Positions 7,066-48,017 of a stretch of 48,291 bases of DNA are shown one piece after another. Made by a program: the position numbers and the translations under genes. Numbering within the stretch: the first letter of the stretch is position 1; every line of letters starts with the position of its first letter. The DNA is taken from contig JAOPZJ010000443.1 in NCBI GenBank assembly GCA_025964155.1, positions 1-48,291 on the forward strand, given 5' to 3'. The notes under the pieces are model-generated. The model saw nothing but the letters and a program-made list of their open reading frames with translations. It was not told where the DNA came from and searched no databases. Origin of the DNA: Solirubrobacterales bacterium. Its GTDB lineage: Bacteria; Actinomycetota; Thermoleophilia; Solirubrobacterales; Solirubrobacteraceae.

Positions 7066-8217
7066 TCAACGGCTCGCGGCGACGCCAGCTTCCGCGGTGG
7101 ACGATTCGACGACCGCCGCGATGACGCGATCCACCTCGCCGTTGCTCATGCCAGGAAACAGTGGAACGCTGCAGACCTCCACGGCGAGCCGCTCGGACAC
7201 GGGCAGGCTGCCGCGCGGCAGCCCGAGATGGGCGTATGCCTCGGTGAGGTGAATCGGCTTGGGGTAGTGCACCGCCGACGCGATGCCCGCGGCGCGCAGG
7301 TGCAGCCGTAGCGCGTCACGCGCGTGGGAACGCACCACGAACAGGTGGTAGACGTGATCGGCTCCGACGAACGGCGGCCGCGGCATCGCGATGCCGCTCT
7401 CGGCGAAGGCGTGGCGCAGCACCCGGCCCAGGCGGCGCCGCTCATCGTTGACGCCGTCAAGCTCGCGGAGCTTGATCGCCAGCACGGCCGCCTGGATGGC
7501 GTCCAGGCGCGCGGTCCCACCGACGACCTCGTGGCGGTAGCGCGTGCGCTCGCCATGCGACCGCAGCATCCGGACCCGGTCCGCGAGCTCGCTGTCGGCC
7601 GTCACGACCGCGCCACCGTCGCCCCACCCGCCGAGGTTCTTGGTCGGGTAGAAGCTGAAGCACCCAAGGTCGCCGAGCGTCCCGGCGCGGCGGCCGCGGT
7701 AGCGGGCGCCGTGGGCCTGGCACGCGTCCTCGACAACCGCTACGCCGGCGGCCCGCGTGACGCGCAGCAACGGCTCCATGTCGACGGTCGAGCCGTAGAG
7801 GTGCACCGGGATCGCGCAGCGCACACGCGGTCCGAGGGCGGCGGCCACGTGGTCGGCGGTCATCAGGTGGGTATCGGGGTCGACATCGACGAGGAGCGGC
7901 TTGGCGCCGACCGCGCTGACGGCCTCCGCGGTCGCGACGAACGAGTTCGCCGGCACGATCACCTCGTCGCCGGGGCCGACGCGCAGCGCCCGCAGCGCGA
8001 GCTCGAGCGCACTCGTGCCCGAGGCCACGCCGACCGCGTGGGCGATCTCGCAATACGCGGCGAAATCGCGCTCGAAGCCCTCGCTGTGCTCGCCGAGCGT
8101 GAACGCACCGGTGCGGGCGACACGCCGCACGGTCGTCAAGAGCTCCTCGAGGAGGTCCGGCTCGGCGTGGCCGAGGCGCGTCAGCGGGATCTCCGCCGGG
8201 GGCCGGGCCGTCCTCAT
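7066..8217 (-). CDS. DegT/DnrJ/EryC1/StrS family PLP sugar aminotransferase
   Basis: This 383-residue PLP enzyme probably transaminates a keto nucleotide sugar. Visible features are GVASGTSALELALRAL (phosphate-binding region), DEVIVPANSFVATAEAV, VVEDACQAHGARYRG, and the PLP lysine in CFSFYPTKNLGGWGDGG, followed by SHGERTRYRHEVVGGTARLDAIQAAVL. The ATG at 8217 overlaps the TGA of the upstream sigma factor gene (ATGA); an upstream in-frame start would run deep into that gene, so I reject it. Together with the Gfo/Idh enzyme it fits the WbpB/WbpE oxidation-transamination pair (inference). Confidence 0.93.
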   Translation of the reverse strand: MRTARPPAEIPLTRLGHAEPDLLEELLTTVRRVARTGAFTLGEHSEGFERDFAAYCEIAHAVGVASGTSALELALRALRVGPGDEVIVPANSFVATAEAVSAVGAKPLLVDVDPDTHLMTADHVAAALGPRVRCAIPVHLYGSTVDMEPLLRVTRAAGVAVVEDACQAHGARYRGRRAGTLGDLGCFSFYPTKNLGGWGDGGAVVTADSELADRVRMLRSHGERTRYRHEVVGGTARLDAIQAAVLAIKLRELDGVNDERRRLGRVLRHAFAESGIAMPRPPFVGADHVYHLFVVRSHARDALRLHLRAAGIASAVHYPKPIHLTEAYAHLGLPRGSLPVSERLAVEVCSVPLFPGMSNGEVDRVIAAVVESSTAEAGVAASR

Positions 8218-42537: not shown

Positions 42538-42930
42538 TCAGCCGATCTCGACCTCCGCGACGGCGTTGCGGATGATCTCGATGCCGTTCTGGGTCGCGAC
42601 CGTCTCGATGAGGGCCACCCCGTCGGTCACGTCGCGGACGGTCCCGGTGACCGTCACCTCCGCCTCCGGCACGCCCATGCCGCGGAACTGGACCGACAGC
42701 GCCTTCAAGGCGTGGGGGCCGCCGGCCGCCTCCGTCTGGGCGCGCGCGACCTGCGCCATCGTCCACAGGCCATGCAGGATGCGACCCGGCAGGCCGACCT
42801 GCCGGGCGAAGTCCTCGTCGATGTGGATCGGATTGAAGTCACCGGAGGCGCCCGCATACCGCACGGTCAGAAAGCGGTCGGGGGTGGTCTTCAGCTCGGG
42901 CAGCTCGGTGCCGGGGATCAGGTCGGCCAT
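42538..42930 (-). CDS. MaoC-like (R)-hydratase/dehydratase, HadB-like catalytic subunit
   Basis: This 130-residue single hot-dog protein has the hydratase 2 motif in SGDFNPIHIDEDFARQVGLPGRILHG, with both catalytic Asp and His. It likely dehydrates (3R)-hydroxyacyl thioesters in fatty-acid synthesis, as mycobacterial HadB does. The ATG at 42930 lies 2 bp after the partner gene's stop; an upstream in-frame ATG would overlap that gene. It pairs with the next protein as a heterodimer (inference from family and order). Confidence 0.88.
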   Translation of the reverse strand: MADLIPGTELPELKTTPDRFLTVRYAGASGDFNPIHIDEDFARQVGLPGRILHGLWTMAQVARAQTEAAGGPHALKALSVQFRGMGVPEAEVTVTGTVRDVTDGVALIETVATQNGIEIIRNAVAEVEIG

Positions 42931-42932
42931 GG

Positions 42933-43373
42933 TCAGACGCCTCGCACGATGTTGGTCCAGGTGCCGACGCACACCGTGTCGCCGGCCTGGTTGGTGGACA
43001 CGGACTCAAAGACGTAGAAGCCCTTGCCGCCGGACTCGGAGATGTCCTTGACGGTGAAGGAGGTGGTGATCTCGTCCCCCGCGACGACGAGCGGCCCCCA
43101 GCGGAACTCCTGACTTCCGTGGACCATGAGCGCGAACTTGATGCCCACCTCCGGGTCGAAGAGCCCCGGGCCCAGGGCAGCGGCGCTGTACACGACCACG
43201 AACATCGGCGGCGCCACCACGTCCGTGTAGCCGGCGGCGCGGGCGGCGGCGACGTCGAGGTGCAGCGGGTTCGTCTCCCCCACGGCGAGCGCGTACTCGC
43301 GTATCTTCTCCCGGCCGACGGCGTACATCGTCGGCGGGTAGCTCTTGCCGATGGCACTCGTGTTCACAGGCAT
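42933..43373 (-). CDS. MaoC-like N-terminal dehydratase, HadA-like subunit
   Basis: This 146-residue hot-dog protein starts SAIGKSYPPTMYAVGREKIREYALAVGETNPLHLD and has VAPPMFVVVYSAAALGPGLFDPE, typical of HadA/FAS1-like dehydratase subunits. The position of the catalytic Asp in its partner is Glu here (GETNPLH), fitting a supporting subunit that gives substrate-chain binding. ATG 43373 has TAGGGT 6 nt upstream, so it likely leads a two-gene leaderless operon. Confidence 0.87.
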   Translation of the reverse strand: MPVNTSAIGKSYPPTMYAVGREKIREYALAVGETNPLHLDVAAARAAGYTDVVAPPMFVVVYSAAALGPGLFDPEVGIKFALMVHGSQEFRWGPLVVAGDEITTSFTVKDISESGGKGFYVFESVSTNQAGDTVCVGTWTNIVRGV

Positions 43374-44144: not shown

Positions 44145-44939
44145 TCAGACGATGATCGCCACCACGCCGCCGTCCACCGACCACGCCGCGCCGGCGACGC
44201 TGGACGCCCGCGCGCTGCAGAGGAAGACGACCACGTCGGCGACCTCCCCCGGCTCGGACATGCGGCCCAGCGGCGCCTGCGCGCTGCGCTCGGCGATCGC
44301 GGCCTCACGGGTCGTGCCTCGCTGTACGGCCAACTGGTCGGCCATGCCGCCGTCGCCCACCCACAGCTCGCTGCCCGTGATCCCCGGGGCGACCGCGTTG
44401 ACGAGCACGCCGTCTGCGGCGTACGCGTCGGCGAAGACCCGCGACAGGGAGAGCTGGCCGGCCTTGCTGACGGAGTAGGCGGCGTTCATCGTCGACGGCC
44501 GCTTGCCCGCCGACGAGCAGACGTTGACGATCCGTCCCCACCCTTGCCGCGCCATCAGCGGAGCGCTCGCCTGCATGAGGCGCATCGGGGCCATGACATG
44601 GAGCTCGTGGTGGCGGCGCCAGTCGTCGTCGTCCAGCTCGTGCAGTGCCTTGACGTACGAGGTGCCCGCGTTGTTGACGAGCACATCGACGGTGCCGAAG
44701 GCCCTGAGGCACGCCGCGACGACGTCGCCACCCGCGGCCGGCGCGGTGACATCGGCAGCGTAGGCGACGACGCGCCCGGGACCGCCCGTCGTGGCGACGA
44801 GCTGCTCGAGGATGTCGGCGCGCCGCGCGACCGCCAGGACGTCCGCCCCCTCGGCGACCAGCCGCTCCGTGATCGCGCGACCGATGCCCTGCGACGCGCC
44901 CGTCACGACGCAGGCCTTGCCGGTCAGTCCCATGTCCAT
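44145..44939 (-). CDS. SDR family oxidoreductase (3-oxoacyl-ACP reductase-like)
   Basis: This 264-residue classical SDR has TGASQGIG, DVLVNNAGTS, the catalytic region VNVCSSAGKRPS and YSVSKAG, NAVAPGITGS and the C-terminal LCSARASSVAGAAWSVDGG, which is typical of FabG-like and polyol dehydrogenases. Substrate unknown. The start is ATG 44939 because TAGCGT lies exactly 7 nt upstream; ATG 44933 is an alternative, and a longer open frame would run into the palindrome. It converges on the membrane protein gene with a 3-bp gap. Confidence 0.9.
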   Translation of the reverse strand: MDMGLTGKACVVTGASQGIGRAITERLVAEGADVLAVARRADILEQLVATTGGPGRVVAYAADVTAPAAGGDVVAACLRAFGTVDVLVNNAGTSYVKALHELDDDDWRRHHELHVMAPMRLMQASAPLMARQGWGRIVNVCSSAGKRPSTMNAAYSVSKAGQLSLSRVFADAYAADGVLVNAVAPGITGSELWVGDGGMADQLAVQRGTTREAAIAERSAQAPLGRMSEPGEVADVVVFLCSARASSVAGAAWSVDGGVVAIIV

Positions 44940-44952: not shown

Positions 44953-44977
44953 CCGAGGCCCGCCGGTGCACGATGCT

Positions 44978-45014
44978 TGAGACCCAGTGCTCGGATAGCG
45001 AGCACTGGGTCTCA
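44978..45014 (-). repeat. Long perfect palindrome (REP-like or terminator hairpin), intact copy
   Basis: TGAGACCCAGTGCTC (44978-44992) and GAGCACTGGGTCTCA (45000-45014) are perfect 15-bp inverted arms with a 7-nt loop. It lies about 20 bases after the stop of the small exported-protein gene, a terminator position, but no U tract follows. The right arm plus the six bases after it recur at 46801-46821. Confidence 0.85.
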
Positions 45015-45033
45015 CGGATGCCCCGGCGCCCGG

Positions 45034-45327
45034 TCAGTCGGCGGGACCTGCCTGCGCGACCCTGGCATAGGGCCTGTAGTCGTCGGCGGCGCCGCGGCAG
45101 GCGCCGCGAAGCAGGAGCTCGACGTCCAGGACGGCCTCCTCGATGGAGAGCGCGCTGGTCTTGAGCCCCTCGCGATCGACGAGGAGCTGCGCCTGCTGCC
45201 GGAACCCCCCGACCGTGTCGCGCATGTGCCCGCAGGTATAGGCGGCCGCGTCGGCCGCCGGGCCGCCGCAACCGCCCTGCGCGAGCGCCAGGCATCCCAG
45301 CAGCGCGATGTGCCTGCGCGCGCGCAT
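45034..45327 (-). CDS. Small exported protein, function unknown
   Basis: This 97-residue protein starts RARRHIALLGCLALAQGGC, a signal peptide that may carry a weak lipobox (QGGC lacks the usual Leu at -3). The mature part has a conserved-looking YTCGHMRDTVGGFRQQAQLLVDREG segment and four cysteines in total after the signal start, then acidic helices. Its ATG lies 4 bp after the MFS stop, so the two are probably co-transcribed. I recognise no family; it could be a membrane-tethered accessory of the transporter. Confidence 0.65.
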   Translation of the reverse strand: MRARRHIALLGCLALAQGGCGGPAADAAAYTCGHMRDTVGGFRQQAQLLVDREGLKTSALSIEEAVLDVELLLRGACRGAADDYRPYARVAQAGPAD

Positions 45328-45331
45328 CACC

Positions 45332-46699
45332 TCAGGCCGCGGCCTCTGCGGCCGTGCCGGATGGCGGCAGGAGTTCGGCACTCGAGGTCTCAAGGAGCGG
45401 CCGGCCCGCGGTCTCTGGAGCCCACAATGCAGTGATGACCGCCCCCGCAACGCAGAACGCCGAGCCCACGAGCATCGTCGGCCCGATGCCGACGGTGTCC
45501 AGGCCGACCGGCAGCAGGAACGTGCCCAGCGCCGCGCCGATCCGGCTGGCGGCGGCGGCGACTCCCACCGCCGTGGTGCGCAACTCGGTCGGGAACAGCT
45601 CGCTGGGGTACGGGCCCGTGAGGGTCCCGCCGATCGCGTTGAAGTACCCGAACGCGACGAACGAGGCCATGACGACCGCGACCGGGGCGGAGGGCCACAC
45701 GCCGACCACGGCCAGTGCGGCCGCGCAGACCCAGAACGGTCCGATCAGCATCGCTCGGCGCCCTATGCGGTCCATGAGCGCGACGCCGGTCACCGCGCCG
45801 ACCACCGCCATCGCGTCGGTCGCGATCGTGGCGGCGTGTTCGGCGAGGCCCAGCGCGCCGAACACCTGCGGCGCAAACGTCACGATCGCGAAGTACGGCG
45901 CGACGTTGCACGCCCAGAACCCGCACACGAGCAGCGTCCGCCGGCGGTATGCGGTGGAGAGGAGATTGCGGACGCCGCCGCGTGCGGGCGGCTCGTCCGC
46001 CATCTCACGGTCAAAGAACTCTTGGCCTCCAAGGTGCTCAAGCGTCACGGCCCGGGCCTCCCGGCGGCGCCCGCGGCTCATCAGCCACCGGGGGGACTCC
46101 GGCATGCCACTGCGCAGGATCAACGTCGCCACGGCCGGCAGCGCGCTGCTTGCCACGATCAGGCGCCACCCAAGCCCCAGCACGTCGAGCATCAGGTATC
46201 CGGCAAGGACCGAGACGAGAAAACCGATGTACCACGATGCGATCAGCCAGGCGCTGAGCCGCCCGCGCCGCTCCGCGGGCGCGAACTCGGCCAGGAGCGG
46301 CGTGCCGATCGCGTACTCGGCCCCGATCGCCATGCCGAGCAGGAGCCGGATCACGAAGAGTTGCTCGACGGTCTGCGCGAACGCCTGCGAGACGCCGAAG
46401 ATGACGAAGCAGACGATGTTGACGAGAAATGGACGCCGGCGGCCGAAACGGTCCGTCACGCGGCCGAACAGCGGCCCGCCGACGAAGATCCCGATCAGCG
46501 ACGACGCCCCGATCAGGCCCGCCCACGCCGTGGAGACGTCAAGGTCGCGGCTGATCGACAGCAGGACGACACTGATGATCCCGAGGTCGTAGCCGTCCAG
46601 GCCCTCGCCGCACGCGGTGGCCAGGGTGACCCGTCGCAGGAACCGCCTCTGGCGAGGGTCGGGTTGGGTGTCGGTCTCGGGGGTCGTGGACGCGGACAT
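45332..46699 (-). CDS. MFS transporter, sugar/metabolite:H+ symporter-like
   Basis: This 455-residue protein has twelve hydrophobic segments. Family signatures are GRVTDRFGRRRPF (loop 2-3), RLLLGMAIGAEYAIGTPLLAEFAPAERRGRL (the metabolite symporter loop after TM4), GMPESPRWLMSRGRR in the central cytoplasmic loop, DRIGRR in the second half and YPSELFPTELRTTAVG. It resembles aromatic-acid or sugar symporters of the SP/MHS families; substrate unknown. ATG 46699 has a GGGAG site. The upstream gap (46700-46835) holds the decayed palindrome copy and a CCTATATGG string but no clear promoter. Confidence 0.92.
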   Translation of the reverse strand: MSASTTPETDTQPDPRQRRFLRRVTLATACGEGLDGYDLGIISVVLLSISRDLDVSTAWAGLIGASSLIGIFVGGPLFGRVTDRFGRRRPFLVNIVCFVIFGVSQAFAQTVEQLFVIRLLLGMAIGAEYAIGTPLLAEFAPAERRGRLSAWLIASWYIGFLVSVLAGYLMLDVLGLGWRLIVASSALPAVATLILRSGMPESPRWLMSRGRRREARAVTLEHLGGQEFFDREMADEPPARGGVRNLLSTAYRRRTLLVCGFWACNVAPYFAIVTFAPQVFGALGLAEHAATIATDAMAVVGAVTGVALMDRIGRRAMLIGPFWVCAAALAVVGVWPSAPVAVVMASFVAFGYFNAIGGTLTGPYPSELFPTELRTTAVGVAAAASRIGAALGTFLLPVGLDTVGIGPTMLVGSAFCVAGAVITALWAPETAGRPLLETSSAELLPPSGTAAEAAA

Positions 46700-46800: not shown

Positions 46801-46821
46801 GAGCACTGGGTCTCACGGATG
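46801..46821 (-). repeat. Decayed copy of the palindromic repeat
   Basis: These 21 bases are identical to 45000-45020. On the minus strand the left arm is intact and is followed by a 7-nt spacer and GAGC, after which the right arm has diverged, so it no longer folds as a long hairpin. It sits 14 bases after the stop of the anti-sigma-like gene. Confidence 0.8.
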
Positions 46822-46835
46822 GCTCGGCGGCCGGC

Positions 46836-48017
46836 CTACGGCTTGGAGGGGCCGGGTGGGCCGGGCCCGATCTGGACGCCCGAGCAGCCGAGCGCGGAGC
46901 TCGCGCCCTCCTCGAACGAGCCGCCCTTGACCTGGCCGGAGCGCATCGCGTCGGCGTACTCCCACAGGACCCTGGGGTAGTCGCCCTCCTTCTGCATCTC
47001 CCTGAGGATCGGCCAGTCCTTCGCCGTGGCCATGGCGGCGACCGCCTGGTCGACCGCAGCGCTGTCGCCCGAGCGGCGCGCCTTGGCCCAGCGCTGCAGC
47101 CAGCGGCAGGACACGAGGCCGGTGACCGCGGCGCCCAGCTGGTAGCGATCCTTCGTGAGGTCGGCGCCCTTGATCTGGCCGGTGTCGAACCCGGGCGGCA
47201 CCGGGATGCCCCTGAGCATCCCCTGGATCGCCGTGTCGCGGTCGGTGGTCTTGACGACGCTCGGCGGCATCGCCGAGAGCCACGTGTCGGTGTCGACGCG
47301 GGTGAGTGTCGCGAGCAGCGCCTTGAACGCGGTCACGTCGGCGGCGCCCGCGCGGAACTCGAGCACGCGGCCGTCGTAGCGGAAGAGCGCGGTGACGTCG
47401 CGGTGGCCGGGCGTGCCGCCCGAGTACTGGTAGACGTGTGCGGTCGTCCCGAGCACGGGCGCGGTCGCGCTGACCTCCGCGTCATGGCCGCGGTCCTTGA
47501 TCCAGTTCTCGAGCGTCCCGCCGCGCCAGTTCAGCTGCGCGACGGTCAGGTCGGCCGGGACCGGCCCGGTGTCCCCCGCGAACTGGGGCGTCGTCTGGCG
47601 CGGCGGCGTCGGCCCGGTGCGGAAGTGCAGCTCGCCCTCCTGCGCGGACTGCTCGTCGGCGTACTCCACGCGCCAGCCGGGAGCCTGCAGCAGCACGAGC
47701 GGCGAGGCCTCGGCGAAGCGGACCTGCTGCGCCGCCCAGACCGTCCCTGACCGATCGCCGGGACCGCTCCCGAGCGACAGGAACGCCATCATCGCCACCG
47801 ACACGGCGGCGACCGCGAGCGCGAGGCGCGGCAGGACGCGACGGCGGCGGCCCCGCGTGGGCGCGGGATTCCCAGGAGGTGCCGCGACCGGGTGGGCCTG
47901 GGCCAGCAGCAGGTCCAGGAGCTCGTCCTCCGCCGCCCCGAGGGGGAGCGCGGCAGCCCGGTTGGCCGGCAGCGGGTCGGCAGCGCGCAGCAGCTTCAGG
48001 AGCTGGTCGTCGGTCAT
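46836..48017 (-). CDS. Membrane-anchored partner of ECF sigma factor (anti-sigma-like)
   Basis: This 393-residue protein has a ~60-residue cytoplasmic N-terminus (DDQLLKLLRAADPLPANRAA, then DELLDLLL), a basic stop (RGRRRR), one transmembrane segment (about 62-83) and a ~310-residue outer domain that I cannot assign. The layout and the ATGA overlap with an ECF sigma gene are those of anti-sigma or CU044_5270-type regulators, but no zinc HxxxCxxC motif is present. The outer domain has repeated tryptophans (PGWRVEY, LNWRGG, NWIKD) and late cysteines that may form a disulfide. Function is inferred from context. Confidence 0.75.
   Translation of the reverse strand: MTDDQLLKLLRAADPLPANRAAALPLGAAEDELLDLLLAQAHPVAAPPGNPAPTRGRRRRVLPRLALAVAAVSVAMMAFLSLGSGPGDRSGTVWAAQQVRFAEASPLVLLQAPGWRVEYADEQSAQEGELHFRTGPTPPRQTTPQFAGDTGPVPADLTVAQLNWRGGTLENWIKDRGHDAEVSATAPVLGTTAHVYQYSGGTPGHRDVTALFRYDGRVLEFRAGAADVTAFKALLATLTRVDTDTWLSAMPPSVVKTTDRDTAIQGMLRGIPVPPGFDTGQIKGADLTKDRYQLGAAVTGLVSCRWLQRWAKARRSGDSAAVDQAVAAMATAKDWPILREMQKEGDYPRVLWEYADAMRSGQVKGGSFEEGASSALGCSGVQIGPGPPGPSKP

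Follow-up and report, generated by a model that had tools for sequence, protein, structure and literature searches.

A palindrome past a stop codon in a Solirubrobacterales genome as a probable solo copy of the recognition site of an AbiEi-like nuclease family

What is a long, perfect palindrome doing just past a stop codon, with half of a second copy 1.8 kb away just past another? The question is raised by contig JAOPZJ010000443.1 (48,291 nt, analysed at its full length and called "the window" here) of the Solirubrobacterales assembly GCA_025964155.1, a 4.69-Mb, 451-contig Paraconexibacter-like draft that is 89% complete. A preliminary description made from the window alone suggested a mobile element resembling repetitive extragenic palindromic (REP) sequences, possibly a terminator family. 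The answer reached here goes beyond that reading, in that it ties the palindrome to a start codon and to a gene for an AbiEi-like nuclease. The window palindrome is probably a solo copy of a palindrome that an AbiEi-like/Vsr-EDxHD nuclease family recognises, and would have been dispersed by or with the genes of that family, serving secondarily as a 3′ hairpin.

The palindrome lies at 44978-45014, where the arms TGAGACCCAGTGCTC and GAGCACTGGGTCTCA enclose GGATAGC (15 + 7 + 15), in agreement with the perfect 15-bp arms and 7-nt loop first described. Since the closing G and C of this loop also pair, the stem is a perfect 16 bp with a 5-nt loop, GATAG. The whole element is a solo palindrome of 39 bp (44977-45015, no strand assigned) with the pattern GTGMGACCnnGTGCTCG-core-CGAGCACnnGGTCKCAC, which we call type 1; its core reads GGATAGC on the plus strand and CTATC on the gene strand. 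The preliminary description placed its end at 45020, and the last six bases are in fact flank common to the second copy. Within this flank, GGAT (45016-45019, no strand assigned) is common to copies on contigs C195, C164 and C151 of the same genome, and the opposite flank, ATCC, is lost at the window palindrome. The second copy, GAGCACTGGGTCTCACGGATG (46801-46821, no strand assigned), is a half-site plus flank, identical over 21 bases to 45000-45020, and retains one arm and six flanking bases as had been noted; the next 13 bases are also alike in the two places. Its other half has decayed to a GAGC remnant that follows after the same 7-nt loop length. Minus-strand stop codons at 45034-45036 and 46836-46838 lie, as reported, 13 and 14 bases from the flanked palindrome and the half copy, respectively. 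No perfect stem in the window with a loop of 3-9 nt is longer than 16 bp, compared with a maximum of 14 and a mean of 10.3 in 40 first-order Markov simulations of the window that served as the chance baseline. The minimum free energy of the palindrome RNA has a z-score of −4.6, a value that none of 200 shuffles reached; the fold of the half copy is only slightly more stable than that of shuffled sequence (z −1.5, matched by 10/200). The window palindrome has no match in Rfam at the gathering threshold.

An exact count of the 14-mer GAGCACTGGGTCTC across the genome, proposed as a check in the preliminary description, returns only four matches at three loci: two in the window palindrome, one in the half copy and one on contig C117 (2384-2397, L001), which is a third type-1 half copy, 13 bp past the stop of a minus-strand gene. 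The wider family emerges only when mismatches are allowed and structure is taken into account. A mismatch-tolerant search, combined with a small covariance model trained on 4 copies (25 matches at E <= 10 with both strands counted; weaker matches and those inside genes, such as C76 and C449, were excluded from the member count), finds about ten places that share one architecture, namely two inverted half-sites around a usually ATA-like core, with a length of 39 bp (37 and 40 bp in two cases). Type 1 (GTGMGACCnnGTGCTCG) occurs on contigs C281, C195, C331 and C357 (the window), and type 2 (GTCCGCTCnnGTGCCCG) on contigs C72, C164, C151, C200, C50 and C324.

The same architecture is more abundant in Paraconexibacter antarcticus 02-257 (NZ_CP098502.1), whose hrcA is 85% identical to that of the window. 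The fixed-length pattern GTGCGG-N27-CCGCAC occurs at 50 places in this genome, and its reversed control at 3; setting aside two places that are other sequence leaves 48 palindromes. A position weight matrix scan of 45 site loci plus a 400-kb systematic sample counts 55 sites of the species' own 39-bp version. With gene contexts taken from a purpose-built codon-usage gene caller rather than from annotation, the neighbouring genes are convergent at 36 of these, tandem at 15 and divergent at 3, and one site falls within a called gene, compared with 36, 115 and 59 convergent, tandem and divergent cases among sampled intergenic regions of at least 45 bp (Fisher 6e-12). The median distance to the nearest stop codon is 21 bp (51 sites where it is defined), and the stretch from stop to palindrome shows no conservation beyond CRGC. 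The earlier suggestion of a larger REP-like family, dispersed and clustering after stop codons, was thus borne out, in the broad sense of untagged REP-like families with many extragenic copies and a 3′ bias. Another relative, G003, has 15 sites of a third form versus none for its control, and 12 of the 15 carry an ATA/TAT core although the core was absent from the search pattern. No repeated palindrome with an ATA core was seen in a 10 x 20-kb sample of G001. Among the 146 genomes of the bacterial family, the consensus GTNNGNYCNNGTG.. rises above background only in the window's genome and P. antarcticus.

Judged from flanking genes, site positions turn over between species. Comparison of these genes revealed no positionally orthologous sites between the window's genome and P. 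antarcticus, and the palindrome is absent at both of the two P. antarcticus places whose flanking genes lie close together in the part of the window's genome that was compared. The P. antarcticus counterpart of the window place (L118, ~7530-7570, upstream of the orthologous short-chain dehydrogenase (SDR) gene) carries an unrelated perfect hairpin with 15-bp arms; the hairpin's other neighbour is presumably a lepA-like gene.

When the genes beside the sites were compared across species, sites were found to overlap the ends of homologous genes of ~300 aa. In P. antarcticus, five of the 55 sites adjoin two such genes, the other 50 being solo: gene 1 has one site at its start and another ~8 bp past its stop, and gene 2, 74% identical to gene 1, has one at its start and two past its stop. 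Pfam detects DUF559 above the cut-off in two of three proteins and AbiEi_4 below the cut-off in the third, NCBIfam has no match to the ~300-aa proteins, and PADLOC reports AbiEi (E 2e-15, down to 3e-17) along with a weak homing endonuclease match. In a structure search with an AlphaFold2 model (pLDDT 92.6), predicted residues 8-195 match AbiEi (6y8q; Z 12.2, 180 residues, rmsd 4.2), and predicted residues 200-299 match the catalytic domain of I-Bth0305I (3r3p; Z 12.5 over 93 residues) and Vsr (Z 10.7; 1vsr, Z 10.2); a second-look list from the PDB gives good coverage of residues 2-63 and 198-299 but poor coverage elsewhere. Nine alignment columns show no variation in 42/42 aligned homologs, including E203, D231, E242, D244, H249 and D258. 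The protein is therefore predicted to be an AbiEi-like DNA-binding half, with the N-terminal winged helix of the AbiEi fold, fused to a Vsr/EDxHD-type nuclease with its acidic and histidine residues. Matches to it occur in 95 of the 146 family genomes.

The strongest link between palindrome and gene is found at the start codon. Among 72 distinct homolog loci, which are the best-scoring matches rather than a random sample, 19 have a start-centred palindrome with a score of at least 10, versus 2 of 617 control genes handled identically (Fisher 4e-18); at a score of at least 12 the numbers are 11 and 0. The 19 are spread over five genera (g1, g5, g10, g14 and g16). For homologs scoring at least 6, the palindrome centre coincides with the A of the ATG in 19 of 25 and the span is 43-53 bp in 18 of 25, in line with the geometry of an AbiEi operator. 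The 5′ end of the gene shares a repeat with its 3′ end (score at least 18) in 16/72 homologs versus 2/309 controls; L273, from another genus, has two copies without a single mismatch over 42 bp. The similarity of noncoding arms tracks that of the proteins (Mantel r 0.38, 0/5000).

The window's genome itself carries such start sites. On C281, a type-1 palindrome has at its centre the ATG of an AbiEi-like N-terminal fragment (MRALGLTDTDTRLL...), which shares 50% identity with residues 1-113 of the P. antarcticus protein (E 1e-26); the best relative of the fragment is the third P. antarcticus homolog (61%), whose start region, GTGCGACCTAGT, is close to type 1. On C50, the ATG of a second homolog, whose frame is disrupted, lies at the centre of a type-2 palindrome. 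In the window palindrome the start-codon ATG of type 1 reads ATC, and the RALGL codons that follow the core are retained, so that it looks like a start-site palindrome that now stands alone. Solo copies also occur in another genus. A 400-kb sample of one G033 contig contains two solo copies of one unit's palindrome (41/51 and 38/51 identical; shuffled maximum 31), two of another unit's palindrome (40/53 identical; shuffled maximum 34) and, in a fifth region, a de novo hairpin of the second unit type. No AbiEi-nuclease homolog was found in these five 20-kb regions, and three further palindromes searched in the sample gave nothing above shuffles.

These observations suggest a model in which the intact unit would be palindrome-gene-palindrome, with the gene starting at the exact centre of a palindrome of mostly 43-53 bp and often a second copy past its stop. 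AbiEi is described in the consulted portion of PMC7319586 as binding two 23-bp inverted repeats 3 bp apart and repressing its own operon, and I-Bth0305I, in that of PMC3943268, as dimerising on a target of nearly 60 bp. By analogy, two molecules of the protein would bind the two half-sites and repress their own gene. With less certainty, nuclease action at the palindrome may set off repair or recombination events by which either the palindrome alone or the entire unit is copied to a new place, and a unit that lost the gene between its two palindromes would be reduced to a solo palindrome. The retention of solo copies past stops would be explained by their low cost at such places and by the strong bidirectional 3′ hairpin that their transcripts would form. 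The repeat family, its placement after stops, its turnover between species, its link to the gene and the predicted fold are all read from sequence; binding of the protein to the palindrome is strongly suggested by site geometry and modelled fold, and spread of the palindrome by the nuclease is the least certain step.

Several observations weigh against this model. Its steps of binding, cutting and movement are inferred from sequence. A start-centred palindrome scoring at least 10 is lacking in 53 of the 72 homologs, a shortfall that may reflect decay, other spacing or a wrongly placed start, and the third P. antarcticus homolog (65% identical) has no family site nearby. The Mantel signal could stem from common descent of the gene and its upstream DNA. 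In the window's genome, nine protein matches were counted and the cognate gene is seen as fragments only. Neither a target-site duplication nor a shared flank beyond ~47 bp was seen, and no match was found among 72,556 plasmid or 50,697 phage records. Lastly, the arms of the G003 sites, which fall into several symmetric types, covary (11.9 within sites vs 10.2 between, 0/20000). Covariation is not expected of a plain dimer site for a single protein; it could reflect pairing, or several proteins that each recognise a symmetric site of their own.

That covariation also speaks for an unlikely alternative, in which the palindromes are intrinsic bidirectional terminators or hairpins protecting mRNA 3′ ends, their sequence is shared through local duplication and gene conversion, and the AbiEi-nuclease genes simply employ hairpins of this sort. 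The short distance to stops and the excess between convergent genes agree with it, as does the unrelated perfect hairpin at the orthologous spot in P. antarcticus. Long hairpins in that genome follow ~29 of 181 stops and precede ~4 of 227 starts, numbers derived from fractions, with some of the 29 being family members. Since long hairpins without a U-tract are common after P. antarcticus stops, a side role of solo palindromes in termination is plausible by analogy but unproven. The window hairpin is GC-rich, as an intrinsic terminator requires, but it has no T-tract and was missed by a consensus terminator scan; of the terminator idea in the preliminary description, a possible 3′ hairpin stands. 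The title of one cited reference indicates that mycobacterial RNA polymerase depends on a U-tract. The P. antarcticus arms match each other no better within sites than between them (13.55 vs 13.50 ± 0.15 of 17 positions; p 0.39), yet conservation is strong at arm positions 8 and 11-15, with 9-10 varying freely (the search pattern itself dictated positions 1-6). Arms that are conserved yet independent form the pattern of two separately recognised half-sites, as in a dimer site, and on the basis of the non-covarying arms purely RNA-hairpin selection is rejected for P. antarcticus, though not for G003. At tandem sites, G-U on the mRNA strand is not favoured over A-C (8 vs 12). The fixed 39-bp length and the conserved core also speak against terminators, which would leave unexplained the palindromes centred on start codons.

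Independent conservation of the half-sites would equally suit a fixed regulon or chromosome-organising site, where an AbiEi-like protein occupies dispersed solo sites to insulate or organise without any mobility. P. antarcticus sites are also mildly nearer the origin (mean distance 1.08 vs 1.28 Mb, p 0.018). We consider this improbable, given that positions are unconserved both at the two testable P. antarcticus places and at the counterpart of the window place, and that site type varies by species and paralog.

Less probable still is a classical REP/BIME family moved by a REP-associated tyrosine transposase (RAYT), the type of enzyme that the preliminary description asked about. Copy number, palindromy and a bias towards 3′ ends and convergent genes do resemble REPs, which the excerpted text of PMC3733652 places near 3′ ends and often between convergent genes; the same excerpt describes some REP-like families (CGTC-tagged or untagged) with no known transposase or dedicated mobiliser. 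Y1_Tnp (PF01797), however, has no match in the window's genome (an incomplete draft), P. antarcticus or G003, and is present in only one of eight genomes of the genus (G006). The GTAG and CGTC tags occur in 0/110 and 5/110 of the 12-nt outer flanks and in neither case at the foot of the palindrome (0/110 each). A local duplication with no wider family, the outcome named as refuting in the preliminary description, might be read from the 14-mer at three loci and the flank shared by the two window copies, but is refuted by ~10 places in the window's genome, 55 sites in P. antarcticus and 15 in G003.

The favoured model, solo copies of a nuclease family's recognition palindrome, has features in common with several known systems. 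With REP/BIME/REPIN sequences and RAYTs (TnpA-REP) it shares short, dispersed extragenic palindromes of species-specific types, biased to 3′ ends and convergent genes, and a gene for a DNA-processing protein flanked by the same palindromes; it differs in lacking a Y1 transposase and a GTAG/CGTC tag, in its longer stem (39-53 bp element), in the ATG at the palindrome centre and in the AbiEi winged helix-turn-helix plus nuclease protein. The AbiEi operators of S. agalactiae abiE and M. tuberculosis rv2827c likewise place two inverted half-sites of ~20-23 bp, with a few bp between them, at the gene start, and the N-terminal fold of the nuclease-fused protein matches the AbiEi antitoxin. Unlike in those systems, a nuclease domain is on the protein and solo operator copies are scattered over the genome; no AbiEii/DUF1814 toxin gene was recognised by eye among the neighbour proteins of two genes of P. 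antarcticus and one of G003, on which no family search was made. The C-terminal fold and its conserved acidic and histidine residues resemble the EDxHD homing endonuclease I-Bth0305I and Vsr, but here no intron or intein context was recognised, the DNA-binding half is AbiEi-like and the gene sits between two palindrome copies. Neisserial DNA uptake sequences, which as inverted pairs act as terminators, are another case of dispersed repeats able to form 3′ hairpins; the present family has far fewer copies, a fixed 39-bp palindrome and a tie to a gene family.

Four genes around the two window copies are on the minus strand. The SDR gene (44145-44939) has its start placed at 44939, with the palindrome upstream; an extension of its open reading frame (ORF) to 45005, crossing the palindrome, is probably not translated. 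On the other side are a 97-aa ORF without a Pfam match (45034-45327), whose stop is 18 bp from the 39-mer, a sugar-type major facilitator superfamily transporter (45332-46699) and a 393-aa ORF without a Pfam match (46836-48017), with the half copy directly past its stop. Farther away, two adjoining small minus-strand ORFs beside hrcA (42538-43367) resemble a hydratase pair, putatively HadA/HadB-like.

Further palindromes were seen in the relatives. P. antarcticus has six close pairs 61-190 bp apart (706919/707016, 1394286/1394347, 1524142/1524214, 2751910/2751971, 4888612/4888745 and 4930629/4930819), and the members of the two 61-bp pairs differ little or not at all, which indicates recent tandem duplication. 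In its 400-kb sample, a second long palindrome family, TGACAGCTGA..., is present at L065:13427-13485 and L077:17219-17269, and once overlaps the end of a fourth AbiEi-like homolog (L280, G002:C1:366300-368600), which suggests, from sequence, a second palindrome-protein pair. A third type, matching or closely resembling GAGGTGTGTCCnCTCAGG, was seen twice in P. antarcticus, at L064:1233-1281 and at L174 near 4888612, in the latter case beside a 133-bp tandem duplication containing the 39-bp palindrome. G007 has two other rare palindromes, one of them directly after an AbiEi-like gene.

In the full text of an open-licence subset of the literature, DUF559 and AbiEi are nowhere mentioned together, no paper brings together REPs, Actinobacteria, hairpins and terminators, and Solirubrobacter palindromes lead only to apparently unrelated papers. 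Within that subset, the proposed dispersal of palindromes from AbiEi-nuclease genes appears to be a route for the spread of short DNA repeats that has not been described before. A bolder extension, which we put forward tentatively and regard as possible rather than likely, is that AbiEi-EDxHD nuclease genes, each flanked by two copies of its operator palindrome, form a new class of selfish DNA, homing into or copying out palindromes over the chromosome without a transposase; a single protein might then repress itself through the very site it mobilises, leaving REP-like solo palindromes. At the level of the present evidence, a REP-like palindrome family without a RAYT gains a specific candidate protein and recognition site, the AbiEi-like/DUF559 proteins found across the bacterial family gain a possible role, and an antitoxin-type operator is linked to a homing-endonuclease-like nuclease.
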